A stretch of DNA of 64,000 nt. Source: Salinibacter sp. 10B (GTDB lineage: Bacteria; Bacteroidota; Rhodothermia; Rhodothermales; Salinibacteraceae). Positions 38,107 through 49,106 of the stretch are shown piece after piece. The notes under the pieces were generated by a model. It did no database searches. It was not told where the DNA came from and saw only the letters and a list, made by a program, of their open reading frames with translations. Position numbers and translations under genes: made by a program. Within the stretch, counting starts at the first letter, position 1. The number at the start of each line of letters is the position of its first letter. The DNA lies in NCBI RefSeq assembly GCF_002954405.1, contig NZ_MQWC01000004.1:3700613-3764612 (forward strand), written 5' to 3'.

Positions 38107-38213
38107 AAAAATAGCCCAGTTTCACCGACGCCCGGGATTCAACGAACGCCTGTCCGCTGCTGCAGTCCAAATAGTACACTCGTTTCTCGTTTATCAACCC
38201 CATCCGAGACCCT

Positions 38214-39200
38214 ATGGGCGACAGCTTTGATCGTGTTGACACCCTCCGTGATGAGCCACGCGAGGATATCCCCATGGCCCATCGCATGAAGCGGTTTGTT
38301 GAAGCGCTCCAGATTCGCATTACCAAGAAGATGGAGGCCCTGGAGGACTCGACTTCGTTTACAGTCGACCGATGGGAGCGTGAGGAGGGAGGGGGTGGTA
38401 TTACGGCGGTCATTGAGGACGGAGAGGTCTTCGAGAAGGCGGGCGTGAACACGTCTGCTGTACACGGCCCACTTCCAGACCGAATGGCAGAGGCCTTTGA
38501 GGTTGATGCGAAGCCCTTCTTTGCAACCGGTCTGTCGCTCGTGATTCACCCCCGGTCGCCGTATGTGCCCACCGTGCACGCGAACTTTCGCTACTTCGCC
38601 CTCGGAGAGGATCTGTTGGCCCCCGAAGATCAGTGGTTCGGCGGTGGGGCCGACCTCACGCCGTATTATCCCCGCCTCGAAGATGCGCAGCACTTTCACC
38701 GCGTGTGGAAGGAGGTCTGTGATCGCCATGACGGAGTGGCCGACTATGAGGCCTTCAAACAGGAGTGCGACGATTACTTCTACGTCGATCATCGAAATGA
38801 AGCGCGAGGCGTCGGGGGCATCTTCTACGACTACCTGCGCGACGATCCGGAGGGCACGTTCTTCTTTACGCGGGAAGCCGGACGCTCCTTTCTCCGGTCG
38901 TACCTGCCCATCGTAGAGCGTCGGAGGACAGAAGAGTGGGGAGAGCGTGAGCGTCGGTTTCAACTCATCCGACGGGGGCGATACGTTGAATTTAATTTGG
39001 TCTATGATCGGGGGACGAAATTCGGCCTTGAAACGGACGGGCGCACGGAGAGCATTCTCATGAGCTTGCCGCCGCATGTGCAGTGGACGTACGATTACCA
39101 GCCGGAGTCAGGCTCCCCGGAGGCCCGAGCGCTCTGGTATTTCGAACCGCGAGATTGGTTGGAACTTTCGGCCGCCGACGTTCCCGACGGGACGGAATAA
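38214..39200 (+). CDS. hemF: Coproporphyrinogen III oxidase, oxygen-dependent
   Basis: 328 residues. Converts coproporphyrinogen III to protoporphyrinogen IX using O2, so heme synthesis here is at least partly aerobic. Conserved blocks are MAHRMKRFVEALQ, VHGPLPDRM, the VPTVHANFRYF stretch, DQWFGGGADLTPYYPRLED, ARGVGGIFYDYL and GRYVEFNLVYDRGTKFGLETDGRTESILMSLPP. All metal/substrate-contacting His and Asp regions appear intact. First of the heme group hemF-hemH-(methyltransferase)-hemL in one orientation. Confidence 0.96.
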   Translation: MGDSFDRVDTLRDEPREDIPMAHRMKRFVEALQIRITKKMEALEDSTSFTVDRWEREEGGGGITAVIEDGEVFEKAGVNTSAVHGPLPDRMAEAFEVDAKPFFATGLSLVIHPRSPYVPTVHANFRYFALGEDLLAPEDQWFGGGADLTPYYPRLEDAQHFHRVWKEVCDRHDGVADYEAFKQECDDYFYVDHRNEARGVGGIFYDYLRDDPEGTFFFTREAGRSFLRSYLPIVERRRTEEWGERERRFQLIRRGRYVEFNLVYDRGTKFGLETDGRTESILMSLPPHVQWTYDYQPESGSPEARALWYFEPRDWLELSAADVPDGTE

Positions 39201-42821: not shown

Positions 42822-44936
42822 TTACGGAGTCCAGAGCTTCACGTCGTCGTCCTTACTTCCAGAGAGAACGTAGCGGCCGTCAGGAGAGAAGGCAATGGCG
42901 TTGACGCCCTCCGCATCGCCCTCAAAGACGTAGCCGAGATTTCCATCCTCTACCTTCCAGAGTTGGACGGTCATGTCGCTGCTCCCACTCAGAACGTATT
43001 GACCGTCCGGGGAGAAGGCGACGGCAATCACGAGGCCGGAATGGCCCTCAAAGGTGCGAAGTAGCTTTCCAGAGTCGACGTCCCACAGCCGGGCCGTCAT
43101 GTCGTCGCTGCCGGAGAGAGCGTACTCCCCGTTCGGCGAGAATGCGACGGAGAAGACGTACGTGGAGTCCCAGTCGCCCTCGTCGAAGGTGCGCACGACA
43201 CTGCCCGTCTCCACATCCCAGAGCTTAAGGGTGCCGGACTGACCGCTGCCGGAGAGCACGTACTCCCCGTTCGGCGAGAAGGTGACCGAGAAGATTGCTT
43301 CGTTGTTTTCGTCGAAGCGGCGGACGAGGTCGCCCGTATCTACGTCCCAGAGATGAAGGGTGCCGGAGGCGCCGCCGCCAGAGAGCACGTGCTGCCCGTC
43401 GGGCGAAAAGGTGGCCCCCAGTACCGCTTCGGAATTTTCCTCGAAGGTCCGGACGGTGTCCCCGGAATCCACATCCCACAGGCGAACGATGCCGTCAGAC
43501 GTTTCAGAGACGAGACGATCGCCGTCAGGAGAGAGCGCGACCGAAATTGGTTGTTCGGTGAGGCCCTCAAACGTCTGAATTTCGCGACCGGTGACGACCT
43601 CCCACAACTTAATCGTGTTGTTCGGGGCGCCCGAGAGGGCATACTGTCCATCGGGCGAGAAGGAGACCGCATTCACCCAGTCGGCATTCCCCTCCAACGA
43701 TCGCACAATGTGCAGCCGTTGCCGCTGCGGTCCCTCAGAGGCTCCATCCTCCGTGGAAGGGGACGGGGTCATTGCCTCTTGCTCTTCTTCGGTGGCGGTC
43801 GCCGTTTCGGACATTGCGGCGGGACTCGGCTCCGCCTCTCCCTCTTCGGGCCGGTACACCTGGGTTTGGGCCGGTTCGCCCTGTCCTCCGCCGGCATCCA
43901 TCGAGACCTGCTCCTCGGCGTCGGCCGTCCCGTCCCCTGAAGATGGAGAGGGGACTTCGACCTCTTCGCCCGGGTCCTCCGAATGGAGCGCCTCAGCGGC
44001 TTCCTGACCGGTTTGGTAGCGGTCGTTGGGATCTTTCTTGAGCAGCTTTGCAATGACCTGCTCCAACCAGGCGGGGATGCTGTCGTCAATCTGACGGGGA
44101 GGCGTGTAGGATTCGTGCAGCACCTTGTACACGACGCTCATGGGGTGGCCTCCCGTGTGAGGGAGTTTCCCGGTGATCGATTCATAAAGAACGACGCCGA
44201 GGCTGTACAAGTCCCCTCGGGCATCAACATCGTTCCCGCGCGCCTGCTCTGGGCTCATGTATTCCGGGGTGCCCAGTACCGTCCCCGTTTGCGTGAGACG
44301 TGCATCCGAGCCCGCGTAGGCAATGCCAAAGTCCATGAGCACGGGGCGTCCCACGTCGGTCACCATGACGTTCGAGCTTTTCACGTCGCGGTGGACCGTG
44401 CCCTGATTGTGGGCGTAGCCGAGGGCTTCGGCCATGGGGGCGATCAGGCTTACTGCCTGTTCTGGGGAGACCGGTCCTTTCTCCTGGACGATCTCGTGGA
44501 GGTCGCGTCCCTCCAGATACTCCATCGCCATGTAATGAACGCCGTTCAGCTCCCCCTCGTCGAAGATGGTGACGATGTGGGGATGGTTGAGTTGGGCCGC
44601 TGATTGGGCTTCCCGGTGGAAGCGCTCCAGCATCTTCCGGTCGTGGGTCATTCCCTGCGGCAGCACCTTCAGGGCCACCTCTCGTCCCAGGCTTTCTTGA
44701 ACGGCCTTGTAGACGATGGCCATGCCGCCACGGCCCAGTTCCTTTTCAATATTATATTCGGGAGACATCGCATCCCGAACGAGAGTTTCGGGATTGGAGG
44801 AGAGTGATCCAGTCCCGGTTCCCGTAGAGGTCGTTTCAGGAGGATCCTCCAGCCACTCGCCGCAGTGTTTGCACTTGCGGGCAGCTTCCAGGATCTCTTC
44901 GTGACAATACGGACAACGCTTTGTGGCTTCGGACAT
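42822..44936 (-). CDS. Serine/threonine protein kinase with N-terminal zinc ribbon and C-terminal WD40 propeller
   Basis: 704 residues. Residues 8-25 form a zinc ribbon (CPYC...CKHC). The kinase domain (about 61-320) is complete: glycine loop LGRGGMA, ATP Lys90, catalytic HRDVKSSN (182-189), DFG 202-204 and GTPEYMSPEQ. A Ser/Thr/Glu-rich linker (about 320-410) leads to seven WD40 repeats (about 415-704; each with FSPDGxY and a (K/R)LW ending), exactly one propeller. No membrane helix is seen, so it is cytoplasmic. It is the last gene of the leftward island with PP2C, Cache and FHA proteins. Substrates may include the FHA protein's partners. Confidence 0.93.
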   Translation of the reverse strand: MSEATKRCPYCHEEILEAARKCKHCGEWLEDPPETTSTGTGTGSLSSNPETLVRDAMSPEYNIEKELGRGGMAIVYKAVQESLGREVALKVLPQGMTHDRKMLERFHREAQSAAQLNHPHIVTIFDEGELNGVHYMAMEYLEGRDLHEIVQEKGPVSPEQAVSLIAPMAEALGYAHNQGTVHRDVKSSNVMVTDVGRPVLMDFGIAYAGSDARLTQTGTVLGTPEYMSPEQARGNDVDARGDLYSLGVVLYESITGKLPHTGGHPMSVVYKVLHESYTPPRQIDDSIPAWLEQVIAKLLKKDPNDRYQTGQEAAEALHSEDPGEEVEVPSPSSGDGTADAEEQVSMDAGGGQGEPAQTQVYRPEEGEAEPSPAAMSETATATEEEQEAMTPSPSTEDGASEGPQRQRLHIVRSLEGNADWVNAVSFSPDGQYALSGAPNNTIKLWEVVTGREIQTFEGLTEQPISVALSPDGDRLVSETSDGIVRLWDVDSGDTVRTFEENSEAVLGATFSPDGQHVLSGGGASGTLHLWDVDTGDLVRRFDENNEAIFSVTFSPNGEYVLSGSGQSGTLKLWDVETGSVVRTFDEGDWDSTYVFSVAFSPNGEYALSGSDDMTARLWDVDSGKLLRTFEGHSGLVIAVAFSPDGQYVLSGSSDMTVQLWKVEDGNLGYVFEGDAEGVNAIAFSPDGRYVLSGSKDDDVKLWTP

Positions 44937-45352
44937 GTCCTAGGGGCGATTCGTGCACTGCACCTGCTTGGAAGACGGCGTTGCGTCCGATCGGACGTCG
45001 GCCGGCGGGGAGCAGGAATGGAAAGGCCATCGATCGATGCTGTCCGGTAGGAGTGAAACAAGGGGGAGGTTATGACCACATCCAACCCGAACAGCAGAAC
45101 TCATAGGGGATCGTCTTCCCCATACGAACAATGAGCAATAATATTGCCAGGTTCGGGAGAACGACGGTGCAGCGTCTCGGGACAACTTGTGAAGAGCAGA
45201 GGGACATGTTACACGTCCCTGCTGCCCGTTTCCCGACGGGGAGACGCGACGTGCCCGGGCAGGGCGAGCGAGGACCCTCGCCCGTCGGGCGGGACGATCG
45301 ATGAAACGCAGAGATCGCCTCCCGGCCCCGACGGACGCTGCGAATGACCTCC
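44937..45352. other. Intergenic region between FHA and kinase genes, with strong hairpins
   Basis: 416 bp without a gene. It holds two hairpins (45195-45223 and 45254-45289) near the FHA gene end and should contain the kinase promoter at its left. Confidence 0.5.
45195..45289 (-). promoter_or_regulatory. Pair of GC-rich hairpins downstream of the FHA gene
   Basis: Hairpin 1 pairs AGCA and GGGAC (45195-45205) with GTCCC and TGCT (45215-45223). Hairpin 2 pairs GGGCGAG (45262-45268) with CTCGCCC (45277-45283), extended by CCCG/CGGG (45254-45257 with 45286-45289). A weaker CCCGT/ACGGG lies between them. There is no U-run, so these may be factor-dependent transcript ends or a structured RNA. Confidence 0.4.
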
Positions 45353-46444
45353 CTAGTCGCGTTCGTAGCGGAGCATCAGTTCGCCCATCCGGATCATATC
45401 GCCGTCCTGAAGTTCGACGGTATTGCCTTCGGGCACCTGATCCCCATTCACCATCGTCGGGTTGGTTTCGCTCGTGTTCTTCAGCAGAATGGTTTGGTCC
45501 TGCTGAATAATTTCCGCCTGCATACGAGACACCGTGCGGTACGTATCCCCGAGCTGAATATGTGCGAAGGCGCGCTCGCCTTCCACCTCCGCCCGGCCAA
45601 TGGTGACCACATTGCCTTCGGGGGTCGGGCGTCCCGCAATCCGGAACTCTTTGCCCTGGTCCGGCCCGGCCGCGATCACAAGGCGACCCGGCACAAACTT
45701 CATTGTTTTCGGGGGAGCCTTGAATTTCAGCGTCTCGGGCCCTTCCGATTCGTCTTCCGGGGTCTGTGAACTGCTGGACTCGGACTTGATGCGCTGCCCA
45801 GAGGGTTCCGGGAAGCCGGTTTCGGCCCCTTCCCCGTCGCCCCCAAGCTCCGTAGAGGACAGATCGGACGAGGGTGGGTCTGTCCCGGCCGAGCCGTCCT
45901 CCGAAGGAGCAGCGGCTTGCGGAGCGGGCTCATCATCCTGGCTGGCGTACGCGAAGTAGCCTAGAACAACGACGACGAGAACGCCAAGCCCGAGGATCAG
46001 ATAAACGGTGATCGTTGAGAAGCCCTGCCGAAGCGACTCGCTGGAGTCTCCGTTCTGGTTGCCGGACGAGATTTGTGTCCGGCTGGACTCGTCTAGCACG
46101 GGCTTTCGGTTGAACGGGCTGATTTCGATGACCCCTTCCACCCGGTAGCGCTCGCCTGGGGCGGGAGGTTGCTGGCCCGTCCGTGCGCGAATTTCCGCCC
46201 CACTATCGTCCTGAAGAATATAATTTTTCGTCTCCGTGTCGTTGCCACTATCGACCTGGCGGTCGACCGTGCCTTCGATCGTCACACTCTGGCCGCGATA
46301 TTTGCCCGGATTGCCATTGATTTCCTTGATCGTGGGTTGGGCCTGCAGCCCCCAAGCACCAAAAATCAAAAGGAAGCAGATCCAGGCTACAGATCGCACC
46401 GGAGGAGTGAATGTGTTCACGTACCGAGTCATGGGGAAAGTCAT
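45353..46444 (-). CDS. Membrane protein with periplasmic OB-fold domain and cytoplasmic FHA domain
   Basis: 363 residues. A signal peptide (ending near LQAQ, residue 36) is followed by an OB-fold-like domain (TIKEINGNPGKYRGQSVTIEGTVDRQ...NYILQDDSGAEIRART, about 38-125), one membrane helix (about 144-167), a low-complexity acidic linker and a C-terminal FHA domain (about 255-363: VVTIGRAEVEG, TVSRMQAEI, NPTMVNGDQVPEG). FHA domains bind phosphothreonine peptides. This topology would link the periplasm to cytoplasmic kinase signalling. The start could also be ATG 46432. It begins 22 bp after the Cache protein's stop, so the two are co-transcribed. Confidence 0.85.
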   Translation of the reverse strand: MTFPMTRYVNTFTPPVRSVAWICFLLIFGAWGLQAQPTIKEINGNPGKYRGQSVTIEGTVDRQVDSGNDTETKNYILQDDSGAEIRARTGQQPPAPGERYRVEGVIEISPFNRKPVLDESSRTQISSGNQNGDSSESLRQGFSTITVYLILGLGVLVVVVLGYFAYASQDDEPAPQAAAPSEDGSAGTDPPSSDLSSTELGGDGEGAETGFPEPSGQRIKSESSSSQTPEDESEGPETLKFKAPPKTMKFVPGRLVIAAGPDQGKEFRIAGRPTPEGNVVTIGRAEVEGERAFAHIQLGDTYRTVSRMQAEIIQQDQTILLKNTSETNPTMVNGDQVPEGNTVELQDGDMIRMGELMLRYERD

Positions 46445-46466
46445 CGGAGATTGGCTTGCGTTCAAC

Positions 46467-47966
46467 TTAGTTTTGAGCGAGGCCGATACGAACAACCCCA
46501 GTCCAATTTTCGTCAACAAATTTGGGCCATACGACCTCACGCACCGATTGCCCGTTGTACTGGATGTCGTGGTGATACAAGGCAGGCGTGTTGGAGGTGC
46601 GCGTCCATTCGCCTTCCCCGTATCCGAGATTCGATCGGTTGAAGTTGTAGGATTCTTCGATCCCGTCGGAGTCGTTTTGGATACAATAGTAGGTCAAAAT
46701 CGGCGAATCATCAAAGATGGCGTCGAAAACCTCAAAGTCGGCTGAGGCCATCCCGGCTCCGCTGAGAAGTGTGCCGATCGCACTTCCGCTGGCGGGAGAC
46801 GTTTCCGAAAACTCAAGCTGATACAGCTTCTTCCACTGCTCGTCACTGTCGACGTTGTCTTGGATCGTTTCGAGACGAACGTTCTCCTCGGCTGTGGTCG
46901 CAATGCTGAACTCAAGAACCAGATAGCGCGATCCGACGGGACTGACCAACCAGGCCATGTTGGACTGATCGGAGGATCGCAGAAGGGAAACTGACCCAGC
47001 GACCGTTTCCAGAAGGGCATCGCTAGGCTGGTTGGCTTCGCTGCCGTACATTCCGCGAGTGACGCTGCCATCGGAGGCAAGGAGGTAGAAGGCCTTCACG
47101 TAGTTGGGAAAGCTGACGCGTTGCATCTCCGTATCCACGTGATTGAGGGCAGTGTCCGAAGGCTGGTCGTCATAAAATGCTGCCCCTATGCGAAGAAGGG
47201 GGGAGAGAAAGTGACCACGAACCGAGATGAGGGACGAGAGGATCGCCTTCGGCGTTGGGTTGCGAGCGGCCATCTCACGGGCAAGAGTGTACGCCTCACG
47301 GAACCGACCATTCAGAAAATAGAGCTCCTCCAGGGTGTTTGCTGTGTTCTCCCAGGTGGCAAGGGACTGATCGGCAGACCAGTTGGCGAGAAGCCAAGCA
47401 TACGCGTTCATGGCCGTTCGCTGGGCTCCTACCTCCAAAGCTGAGGTTCCACAGTAGTATTCGGCCCGGAAATTTTCGTCTACGTATTTGGGGTACGAGC
47501 GACACAAGCGGTAGGCAGCGTCGTACTCGTCGGCTTCAACCTCTTGTTGAATGAGACTGCGCACGTGCGATTCCACCCGTCCGCTCAGTTGGTCTCGTTG
47601 AGCGGACGTAAGGTACGACTGGTTGGAGAGAACATTGATGTACTGCTGAAGGGCCCCGGAGCCTTGACGTCGGACGGCCCCGAACCATTCTCCGAGCACT
47701 TCGGCAAGCTTCTCCCGGACGAAGTCGCGGTCACAGTTCTGTGCGGTGCTATTGAGCACCTTCACCGCCCGGCTGAAATTCGATTGTTCAAGAAGACGGT
47801 CCGCAAGGCTAATCTGTCGCTGGGCGAAGTCTTCGCAGTACGAAGGAGAGGAAGGGGAAGCAGCTGGCCGAGGACTGGTCGAGGAAAGAGGGCCGGCGTG
47901 GGTCGCAGGGACCAGCAGGACGGCAACGAGGAGAGAAAGAACGGTCATTCGATTACAAAAGGGCAT
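46467..47966 (-). CDS. Secreted protein with TPR-like helices and C-terminal Cache-like sensor domain
   Basis: 499 residues with a signal peptide (MPFCNRMTVLSLLVAVLLVPATHA). About 45-270 is helical with TPR-like pairs (LADRLLEQSNFSRAVKVLN; ADEYDAAYRLCRSYPKY; LYFLNGRFREAYTLAREMA). About 300-499 looks like a Cache domain: FPNYVKAFYLLASDGSV, YLVLEFSIATT, and the ending VREVVWPKFVDENWTGVVRIGLAQ, close to the strand that closes many Cache sensors of kinases and chemoreceptors. No membrane helix beyond the signal is seen, so it should be periplasmic. It lies directly upstream of the FHA gene. Cache assignment is by pattern only. Alternative starts: 47984 or 47948. Confidence 0.65.
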   Translation of the reverse strand: MPFCNRMTVLSLLVAVLLVPATHAGPLSSTSPRPAASPSSPSYCEDFAQRQISLADRLLEQSNFSRAVKVLNSTAQNCDRDFVREKLAEVLGEWFGAVRRQGSGALQQYINVLSNQSYLTSAQRDQLSGRVESHVRSLIQQEVEADEYDAAYRLCRSYPKYVDENFRAEYYCGTSALEVGAQRTAMNAYAWLLANWSADQSLATWENTANTLEELYFLNGRFREAYTLAREMAARNPTPKAILSSLISVRGHFLSPLLRIGAAFYDDQPSDTALNHVDTEMQRVSFPNYVKAFYLLASDGSVTRGMYGSEANQPSDALLETVAGSVSLLRSSDQSNMAWLVSPVGSRYLVLEFSIATTAEENVRLETIQDNVDSDEQWKKLYQLEFSETSPASGSAIGTLLSGAGMASADFEVFDAIFDDSPILTYYCIQNDSDGIEESYNFNRSNLGYGEGEWTRTSNTPALYHHDIQYNGQSVREVVWPKFVDENWTGVVRIGLAQN

Positions 47967-48275
47967 CGGCAAAAGGAGGTGCATCGGCGAGGCCTGCACT
48001 AGATCCGGGGACGAGCAGTGGGGAGACGACCCTTCGGAGACGGGTGAGGAAGAACAATACTCCGAAAGATGGCCGTTTACGCTCGAGTTTACGTATGGTC
48101 GTGACCCGGGATAGATGTCCGTCTCGTGTAGAAACGGCATCCGTGAGTCCCCAATCTATGCGGATGCATCGAGAATTTACATAGATGACCGGACCATGGA
48201 CCTTCCTTTGAAACCTATGGCCGTCTTCGGGGGAATGCAAACGTCGGGGAAAGAGGTGCCTGATTCCCCTGTCCT
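47967..48275. other. Intergenic region between PP2C and Cache-protein genes
   Basis: About 310 bp. No gene is convincing, although the reading frame of the Cache gene stays open upstream to 48140 without conserved sequence. It probably holds the promoter of the Cache-FHA pair. Confidence 0.4.
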
Positions 48276-49106
48276 TTATGCAGGCTCTTCTTCACGAGGG
48301 GGGAAGGGATATGTCCGCACGCGTCCGAGCTCTCGTTCGAGGGTGCCGGCCTCCGCAAGGACGGCAGAGATGTTATCTGTGGAGCCGGAATAGTACGCGA
48401 GGGATACAAGAGATTCCGCGGCCGTCTTCAGGTCGGGGGTTCCGAGCATGTACGATTTGAAGAGCTGTTTCTGGTCCTGCAGCTTGTCCACAATGAGGCC
48501 GTCGGAACAGAGCAGGAAGCCATCTTGCTCAGAAAGCGAATAGGCCGGAGCATCTTTTGGGAAGAAGTCCGGCTCGTCCCCCGTCCCGTCGAGGGTCTTG
48601 TTGATGATGTGCCCGTACTGCTCGATAAATTCGGGATCGATGTTGTCGTCTCCAGCCTCTTTTTCGAATTCGCGCAGGTACGAGTGGTCCTCGGTCACCT
48701 GCTTGATCTCGCCGTCGGTCAGGTAGTAAACGCGACTGTCCCCGAGATTTCCGGCAATAAACTGGTTGTCGCATCCGAGCACGCAGGTGAGCGTGGTGCC
48801 CATCCCGTCGAGCGAGGGATCCTGCTCCGTAATTTCGCGAATCGATTCCTGCGCAGCGTCGAAGGCGTTCTCCAGAATGTCCTTGAGCATGTCCGGAGTG
48901 ACCTCGTCCTCGAACTCGTCTCGGAGGACCGACTCCACCGTCTGCAAAACAGTCTGGCTCGCAATCTGGCCTCCCGCGACGCCTCCCATTCCGTCAGCAA
49001 CGCCTAGGAAAAAGGCGTCCGACGAAGGGTAAAAATGTAAGATGTCGTCCTGATTTACATCCCGGCGACCCGGAAATGTCGTGCCGTGGGCGGAGATCGG
49101 TAGCAT
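48276..49106 (-). CDS. PP2C-family serine/threonine protein phosphatase
   Basis: 276 residues, with all PP2C landmarks: RRDVNQDD near the start, the metal-binding Asp38 in VADGMGGVAGG, the TTLTCVL strand, NLGDSRVYYL, LLCSDGLIVD and the final metal site GSTDNISAVL. It removes phosphates from Ser/Thr residues in the cytoplasm and is the natural counterpart of the kinase at 42822-44936. An acidic loop (about 140-185, including NKTLDGTGDEPDFF) fits the halophilic proteome. First gene of the leftward signalling island. Confidence 0.93.
   Translation of the reverse strand: MLPISAHGTTFPGRRDVNQDDILHFYPSSDAFFLGVADGMGGVAGGQIASQTVLQTVESVLRDEFEDEVTPDMLKDILENAFDAAQESIREITEQDPSLDGMGTTLTCVLGCDNQFIAGNLGDSRVYYLTDGEIKQVTEDHSYLREFEKEAGDDNIDPEFIEQYGHIINKTLDGTGDEPDFFPKDAPAYSLSEQDGFLLCSDGLIVDKLQDQKQLFKSYMLGTPDLKTAAESLVSLAYYSGSTDNISAVLAEAGTLERELGRVRTYPFPPREEEPA

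Follow-up and report, generated by a model that had tools for sequence, protein, structure and literature searches.

To our knowledge, few serine/threonine (Ser/Thr) kinase circuits of bacteria have an identified input signal. In Actinobacteria, the GlnH-GlnX-PknG-GarA/OdhI pathway brings together an exported ligand-binding protein, a membrane protein, a soluble Ser/Thr kinase and an FHA reader, the first three encoded in one operon, and the kinase carries an N-terminal metal-binding module in most cases (PMC8546545). This pathway is the closest working analogue, by the types of its parts as judged from sequence and fold and with no homology claimed, of a four-gene cassette in Salinibacter sp. 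10B. The cassette lies on the minus strand at positions 42822-49106 of the window, the whole 64,000-nucleotide (nt) stretch analysed here (contig NZ_MQWC01000004.1, positions 3,700,613 to 3,764,612). It encodes a PP2C phosphatase, an exported protein with TPR-like and Cache-type regions (TPR-Cache), a membrane protein joining an OB ectodomain to an FHA domain (OB-FHA), and a zinc-ribbon kinase with a WD40 propeller. Since the four genes are inherited and lost together, they are very probably components of a single signalling circuit that connects the cell exterior with internal phosphorylation.

The actinobacterial pathway senses through a solute-binding lipoprotein, has a free, soluble FHA protein and carries its TPR repeats in the kinase. 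In the cassette, by contrast, the FHA domain belongs to the membrane protein, TPR-Cache is the sensor-like component, the kinase combines a zinc ribbon with WD40 repeats, and a PP2C gene is included. Membership of that pathway was considered and rejected, as the kinase C-terminus is WD40 rather than TPR and the FHA domain is fused to a transmembrane helix and an OB domain. Other described systems share subsets of the parts. PpkA, PppA and Fha of the type VI secretion system (T6SS) are likewise a kinase, a PP2C phosphatase and an FHA protein acting at the inner membrane through phosphothreonine reading (PMC3953482); the cassette differs in having no T6SS genes nearby and in anchoring its FHA protein, which bears an OB ectodomain, in the membrane. 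DgcB, GarA and OdhI are self-reading: the FHA domain of each recognises a phosphothreonine of the protein's own tail that has a hydrophobic residue at +3 (PMC6733907). OB-FHA, whose nearest FHA structures are these three, also has threonines with a hydrophobic +3 residue upstream of its FHA domain, although its tail comes after a transmembrane helix and an OB domain and holds two motifs. According to the accessible part of PMC7159879, triads of zinc-ribbon kinase, PP2C and vWA occur around GAP1-N2 systems; the cassette shares two of these part types, a zinc-ribbon kinase linked to PP2C, and has neither vWA nor GAP1, while that part of the source mentions no FHA, OB or Cache components of the triads. 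PkwA and other bacterial WD-repeat kinases also unite a kinase and a WD40 propeller in one chain, and the accessible portions of their descriptions (PMC1262709, PMC6113231) report for none of them a cassette that also holds an exported Cache protein, OB-FHA and PP2C. Taken singly, the parts are all of known types, and no description of the four-gene combination was found in the literature searched, few subscription papers being within reach of that search. The cassette is a compact co-inherited set of exported sensor-like protein, membrane phosphothreonine reader, kinase and phosphatase that offers three specific candidate threonines, and, alongside GlnH-GlnX-PknG, it would represent a second design by which an extracytoplasmic cue could be passed to a soluble Ser/Thr kinase.

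The genes are arranged as follows.

48276..49106, minus strand: PP2C-type Ser/Thr phosphatase, 276 amino acids (aa), predicted cytoplasmic (Pfam PF13672, 2.9e-18; metal-binding Asp invariant)
46467..47984, minus strand: predicted exported TPR-like/tandem-Cache protein, 505 aa from its likely start (reading frame open to 48140)
45353..46432, minus strand: OB-TM-FHA protein, predicted single-pass in the membrane (TM, transmembrane), 359 aa from its likely start (reading frame open to 46540; FHA 8.1e-13)
42822..44936, minus strand: soluble zinc-ribbon Ser/Thr kinase with seven WD40 repeats, 704 aa (Pkinase 6.5e-51; no transmembrane segment)

An earlier note, made from the sequence alone, had described four leftward genes of these kinds with all catalytic residues intact. 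The open reading frames and the Pfam matches, which include seven WD40 stretches at 1.8e-67, bear out the inventory, and the key residues are invariant across the ten orthologues: K90, HRD182-184, N189 and DFG202-204 of the kinase, C8, C11, C22 and C25 of its zinc ribbon, D20, D38-G39, D202 and D244 of the phosphatase, and G279-R280, S302, N324 and N329 of the FHA domain, where the usual SxxH reads SxxQ. Hydropathy shows no membrane segment in the kinase or the phosphatase. The listed starts of OB-FHA and TPR-Cache are probably too far upstream, the true ones, judged from alignments of the orthologues, being at 46432 and about 47984. Because these lie further downstream, the apparent overlap of the two genes disappears, leaving intergenic gaps of 291, 34 and 416 nt. 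Family assignment by NCBIfam and PADLOC yielded nothing past the domain level; the phosphatase, for instance, scores 155.6 bits against the Stp1/IreP family NF033484, below its cut-off of 230.

The case for a single unit comes from the distribution of the genes among 27 genomes of the family (Salinibacteraceae-type halophiles). All four are present at full length in ten genomes and none of the four in the other 17, and the full-length kinase orthologue is confined to the ten. Several of the non-carrier genomes are incomplete; nine non-carriers have a completeness of 90% or more and a contamination of no more than 5%. Gene order and strand are identical in all ten carriers, which span five genera and include the cultivated relative Longimonas halophila, so the order that the earlier note proposed to look for in relatives is conserved. 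Scattering of the genes among close relatives, which that note named as refuting its proposal, was not seen. On a polA tree of 24 of the 27 genomes, presence and absence change three times, each change forced by well-supported branches; in the simplest history the cassette was gained once, at the base of the carrier clade, and was lost as a whole twice. This all-or-none pattern, with loss as a block, supports the earlier claim of one functional unit. Could the four genes be mere neighbours, co-inherited with a conserved chromosome segment and sharing no function? The synteny of hemL, on one side, and HAD/polA, on the other, is also kept in most cassette genomes, and the width of two gaps (291 and 416 nt), together with a putative promoter of the kinase gene's own, would suit such a reading. 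Against it, the flanks persist where all four genes vanish together (G013 and G014, loci L079 and L080, where HAD directly abuts hemL), the polA tree carries at least two whole-unit losses, and relatives of all four parts are regrouped in another order in a distant genome of the class, at locus L114. Mere neighbourhood is thus hard to credit. In G015 and G021 the empty site is unreadable because the segment is rearranged or split over contigs.

The L114 locus belongs to a wider set. OB-FHA has distant relatives elsewhere in the class, and in the five neighbourhoods examined (L041, L081, L114, L115, L116), as in the window and the nine orthologous cassettes, genes for a Ser/Thr kinase, an OB-TM-FHA protein and a PP2C phosphatase are adjacent. 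The operon at L114 runs OB-FHA, PP2C, a TPR-Cache relative and a PEGA kinase, with a 4-nt overlap and then gaps of 10 and 12 nt; the TPR-Cache relative, of 792 aa with a lipobox-like start, scores 113 bits against the TPR-Cache profile over positions 132-508. Relatives of all four parts therefore meet in a second, differently ordered operon. The other four loci are kinase/OB-FHA/PP2C triads with no TPR-Cache relative, and their surroundings can be described separately. L041 (5868-11233), in the cassette-less genome G014, reads PEGA/TM kinase, OB-TM-FHA, TM-bearing PP2C and then a vWA-like protein; vWA proteins stand beside two of the triads, by sequence at L041 and by Pfam at L081. Downstream of the triads at L115 (11263-14941) and L116 (5456-8916) are PEGA/TPR lipoprotein-like and DUF5683 proteins, with a PD40 propeller at L116, which suggests that PEGA/TPR lipoprotein and DUF5683 are a recurring envelope partner set.

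How the four products might work together is best approached from the membrane protein, which was modelled together with seven relatives. Its parts, and the motif of the kinase that may dock to it, are these.

46064..46342, minus strand: extracytoplasmic OB-fold domain, residues 31-123 (predicted local distance difference test, pLDDT, about 80-90; VIA-align Z about 12-13.8)
45944..46015, minus strand: predicted transmembrane helix, residues 140-163 (structure model and hydropathy)
45695..45739, minus strand: juxta-FHA motif PETLKFKAPPKTMKF, with candidate phosphothreonines T234 and T243 (both Thr identical in 10 of 10)
45356..45694, minus strand: FHA domain, residues 247-359 (VIA-align Z 12-13 to the FHA domains of DgcB, GarA and OdhI)
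43848..43874, minus strand: kinase linker motif PAQTQVYRP, with candidate FHA-docking T358 (conserved inside a variable linker)

Hydropathy places two hydrophobic segments in OB-FHA, at 11-29 and 136-165. The model has a clear five-stranded OB barrel at residues 31-123, which aligns to anticodon-binding, MCM and RPA OB folds with a root-mean-square deviation of about 2 over 82-91 residues. A nucleic-acid-binding role was weighed because these best structural matches are anticodon-binding and single-stranded-DNA-binding folds; it is not claimed, the conservation list being without a standout conserved aromatic or basic surface. Equally clear in the model is an FHA fold with the Arg, Ser and Asn that bind phosphothreonine. 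Between the membrane and this domain, residues 166-247 are predicted to be disordered (pLDDT 33-42). The PETLKFKAPPKTMKF block directly N-terminal to the FHA domain is nearly invariant, with PKTMKF in all ten orthologues, and paired T-x-[KR]-hydrophobic motifs precede the FHA domain in the window and in most distant OB-FHA relatives (exceptions are L036, where the first is TLRF, and L114, with TIVL/TMKA). In the kinase linker, T358 is identical in ten of ten and Q359 in nine, the pattern T[QK][VI][YF] holds in all ten, and the rest is variable. By analogy with DgcB, GarA and OdhI, these motifs fit the preference of FHA domains for a hydrophobic +3 residue, and with invariant Thr motifs in both linkers the earlier suggestion that the FHA domain binds phosphopeptides of the kinase linker gains support.

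The exported protein is less easily classified. The features assigned to it are listed below.

47262..47846, minus strand: TPR-like helical region, residues 47-241 (secondary structure of the model; Pfam TPR_14, 6e-4)
46869..47261, minus strand: likely Cache-type domain 1, residues 242-372 (VIA-align Z 8.3-8.8 to KinD 4jgp and vpHK1S 3lid, over 240-372)
46470..46868, minus strand: likely Cache-type domain 2, residues 373-505 (VIA-align Z 7.5-9.2 to KinD 4jgq, 3lif, YycG and PctB)

It has one hydrophobic segment, N-terminal (7-34), and no second by hydropathy. The weak TPR_14 hit is its sole Pfam match, with none to Cache; a PDB sequence search gave no useful match and a plasmid search no relative. 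No orthologue occurs in 87 other genomes of the order, and the phylum sample returned the known orthologues and two weak partial matches, nothing more. Its AlphaFold model (mean pLDDT 79) shows helical repeats followed by two alpha/beta domains, and both C-terminal regions (240-372 and 388-505) align to extracytoplasmic Cache/PAS sensors, so that two tandem Cache/PAS-type domains are likely. This reading is supported less strongly because Foldseek gave no match at E < 1e-3. Cache-type domain 2 is the most conserved part of the protein, 17% of it invariant, including W460, TPAL466-469, E483 and VWP485-487. The four cysteines (C50, C84, C161, C178) are all invariant, and their spacing would permit two disulphides (C50-C84, C161-C178), in keeping with export.

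A mechanism can be proposed in which the exported TPR/tandem-Cache protein senses a small molecule in the periplasm or outside the cell, or the state of the envelope, and binds the OB ectodomain of OB-FHA, which would become clustered or exposed at the inner membrane. The soluble WD40 kinase would then phosphorylate its own linker at T358 (TQVY) and OB-FHA at T234 and T243 (TxKF). The FHA domain might read these pThr-x-x-hydrophobic marks and so tether the kinase to the membrane; in addition or instead, the tail might fold back on the FHA domain, as in GarA, OdhI and DgcB, and the WD40 propeller might hold substrates. PP2C would reset the state, and the supply of kinase would be controlled separately through a sigma-54-type promoter. 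That the four genes form one envelope-associated phosphorylation circuit with these particular steps, namely kinase-FHA docking through phosphothreonine, PP2C reset and Cache/OB input, we judge to have about an even chance of being right. More tentatively, and on balance doubtfully, an as yet undescribed family of envelope receptors may run through the class, with this cassette as its best-defined member. The membrane proteins of such receptors would signal through a phosphothreonine reader in place of a kinase, and an exported Cache protein together with the OB ectodomain would determine where a soluble WD40 kinase docks via pThr-x-x-hydrophobic motifs. Of the circuit sketched in the earlier note, the single unit, its stand-alone character and the OB fold stand, and the Cache fold is likely, with moderate Z values; a conformational relay from OB to FHA is disfavoured, and recruitment or clustering fits better because about 80 disordered residues separate the membrane helix from the FHA domain.

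Several points weigh against this mechanism. The Cache assignment, with Z of 7.5-9.2, Foldseek E of at least 3e-3 and pLDDT of 79, is near background for difficult models, and the TPR-Cache part is not universal, since four of the five distant triads do without it. T243 may sit so near FHA strand 1 that it cannot enter the pocket of its own FHA domain, and the conserved Thr motifs could be structural. With the linker predicted to be disordered, a conformational relay is less plausible, and there is room for signalling in the opposite direction. Could the signal run from inside out? The kinase and PP2C would then answer a cytoplasmic cue via WD40, and juxtamembrane phosphorylation of OB-FHA would control whether a periplasmic OB/TPR-Cache complex assembles or is active in some envelope function, with TPR-Cache as effector or scaffold and not as sensor. 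The disordered linker and a kinase without a membrane segment are compatible with this, as are the relatives in which PEGA-TPR lipoproteins and propeller/DUF5683 envelope proteins accompany the triad, and there is precedent in T6SS, where FHA binding to phosphothreonine on inner-membrane TssL drives assembly of an envelope machine (PMC3953482). However, Cache-type domains are usually ligand sensors, conservation in the exported protein peaks in Cache-type domain 2, and no envelope-machine gene adjoins the cassette. Inside-out control is the less likely alternative, and an exported Cache protein that feeds a signal in is preferred, though not on sequence grounds, over one that is itself controlled.

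The kinase domain also invites comparison with known systems. It matches many PD-T4-6 models (7.6e-103), all through the kinase domain only, and scores 362.4 bits against the PASTA-kinase model NF033483, under the cut-off of 450 and over residues 60-383 only, while the FHA domain weakly matches TagH. These similarities might be taken to mean that the cassette is a phosphorylation-regulated accessory of type VI secretion, PASTA-kinase cell-wall control or PD-T4-6 anti-phage defence. The matches are at the level of domains, though, and fall under the cut-offs where these exist. A PASTA kinase (PknB/Stk1) module was rejected, the kinase having no transmembrane segment, and so was T6SS membership: the flanks hold no T6SS structural genes, and the TagH/VI_FHA equivalog scores 35.9 bits against a cut-off of 120.25. 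The flanking genes are hemH, a methyltransferase gene, hemL, HAD, polA and genes for M16 peptidases, with no defence genes among those examined, and the cassette occupies one fixed housekeeping site and is vertically inherited, unlike a mobile defence island. An accessory role of this kind is improbable. The same haem, polA and protease neighbours, with no secretion or cell-wall genes among them, uphold the earlier view of a stand-alone system.

The gap upstream of the kinase contains one further element.

45134..45149, minus strand: putative sigma-54-type promoter element TGGCAATATTATTGCT, 213 nt upstream of the kinase ATG, in the 416-nt gap between OB-FHA and kinase

TGGCAATATTATTGCT has the exact GG-N10-GC spacing. 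Scored over 12 consensus positions (TGGCAC-N5-TTGC) at a conserved position in the orthologous gaps, the element reaches 10 or 11 of 12 in six of the ten gaps (g1, g2, g4) and 9 of 12 in two more, with a chance of such a match of 0.2-4% per gap. The gaps scoring at least 10 come from three genera, and the remaining gap sequence is poorly conserved. The two genomes of Longimonas type (g5), which have gaps of 111-131 nt, lack the element. A scan for sigma-70-type promoters found none, and the alignment of the 416-nt gap gave no sign of a small open reading frame or RNA, the only standouts being the sigma-54-type element and the nucleotides adjoining the start codon. Since the element is conserved in this gap, the kinase gene may be transcribed separately, and the conservation hints at RpoN control of part of the cassette. 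The genome encodes sigma-54 activators; an FHA domain in them, as a possible loop to the promoter, was found in none of six.

Some observations concern the neighbourhood and the family more generally. Neighbours in most cassette genomes, hemL and polA lie about 114-116 kb apart in G015 (L084, L085) and G016; the segment carrying them was rearranged in this clade. A 312-aa protein with no Pfam match (window 38139-39077, minus strand) is kept beside ferrochelatase in several family genomes. Finally, a second, distinct kinase-FHA gene pair is present at L088 (4975-8426) in G003 and, by position, also in G005, G006 and G019, and appears to be conserved within the family.

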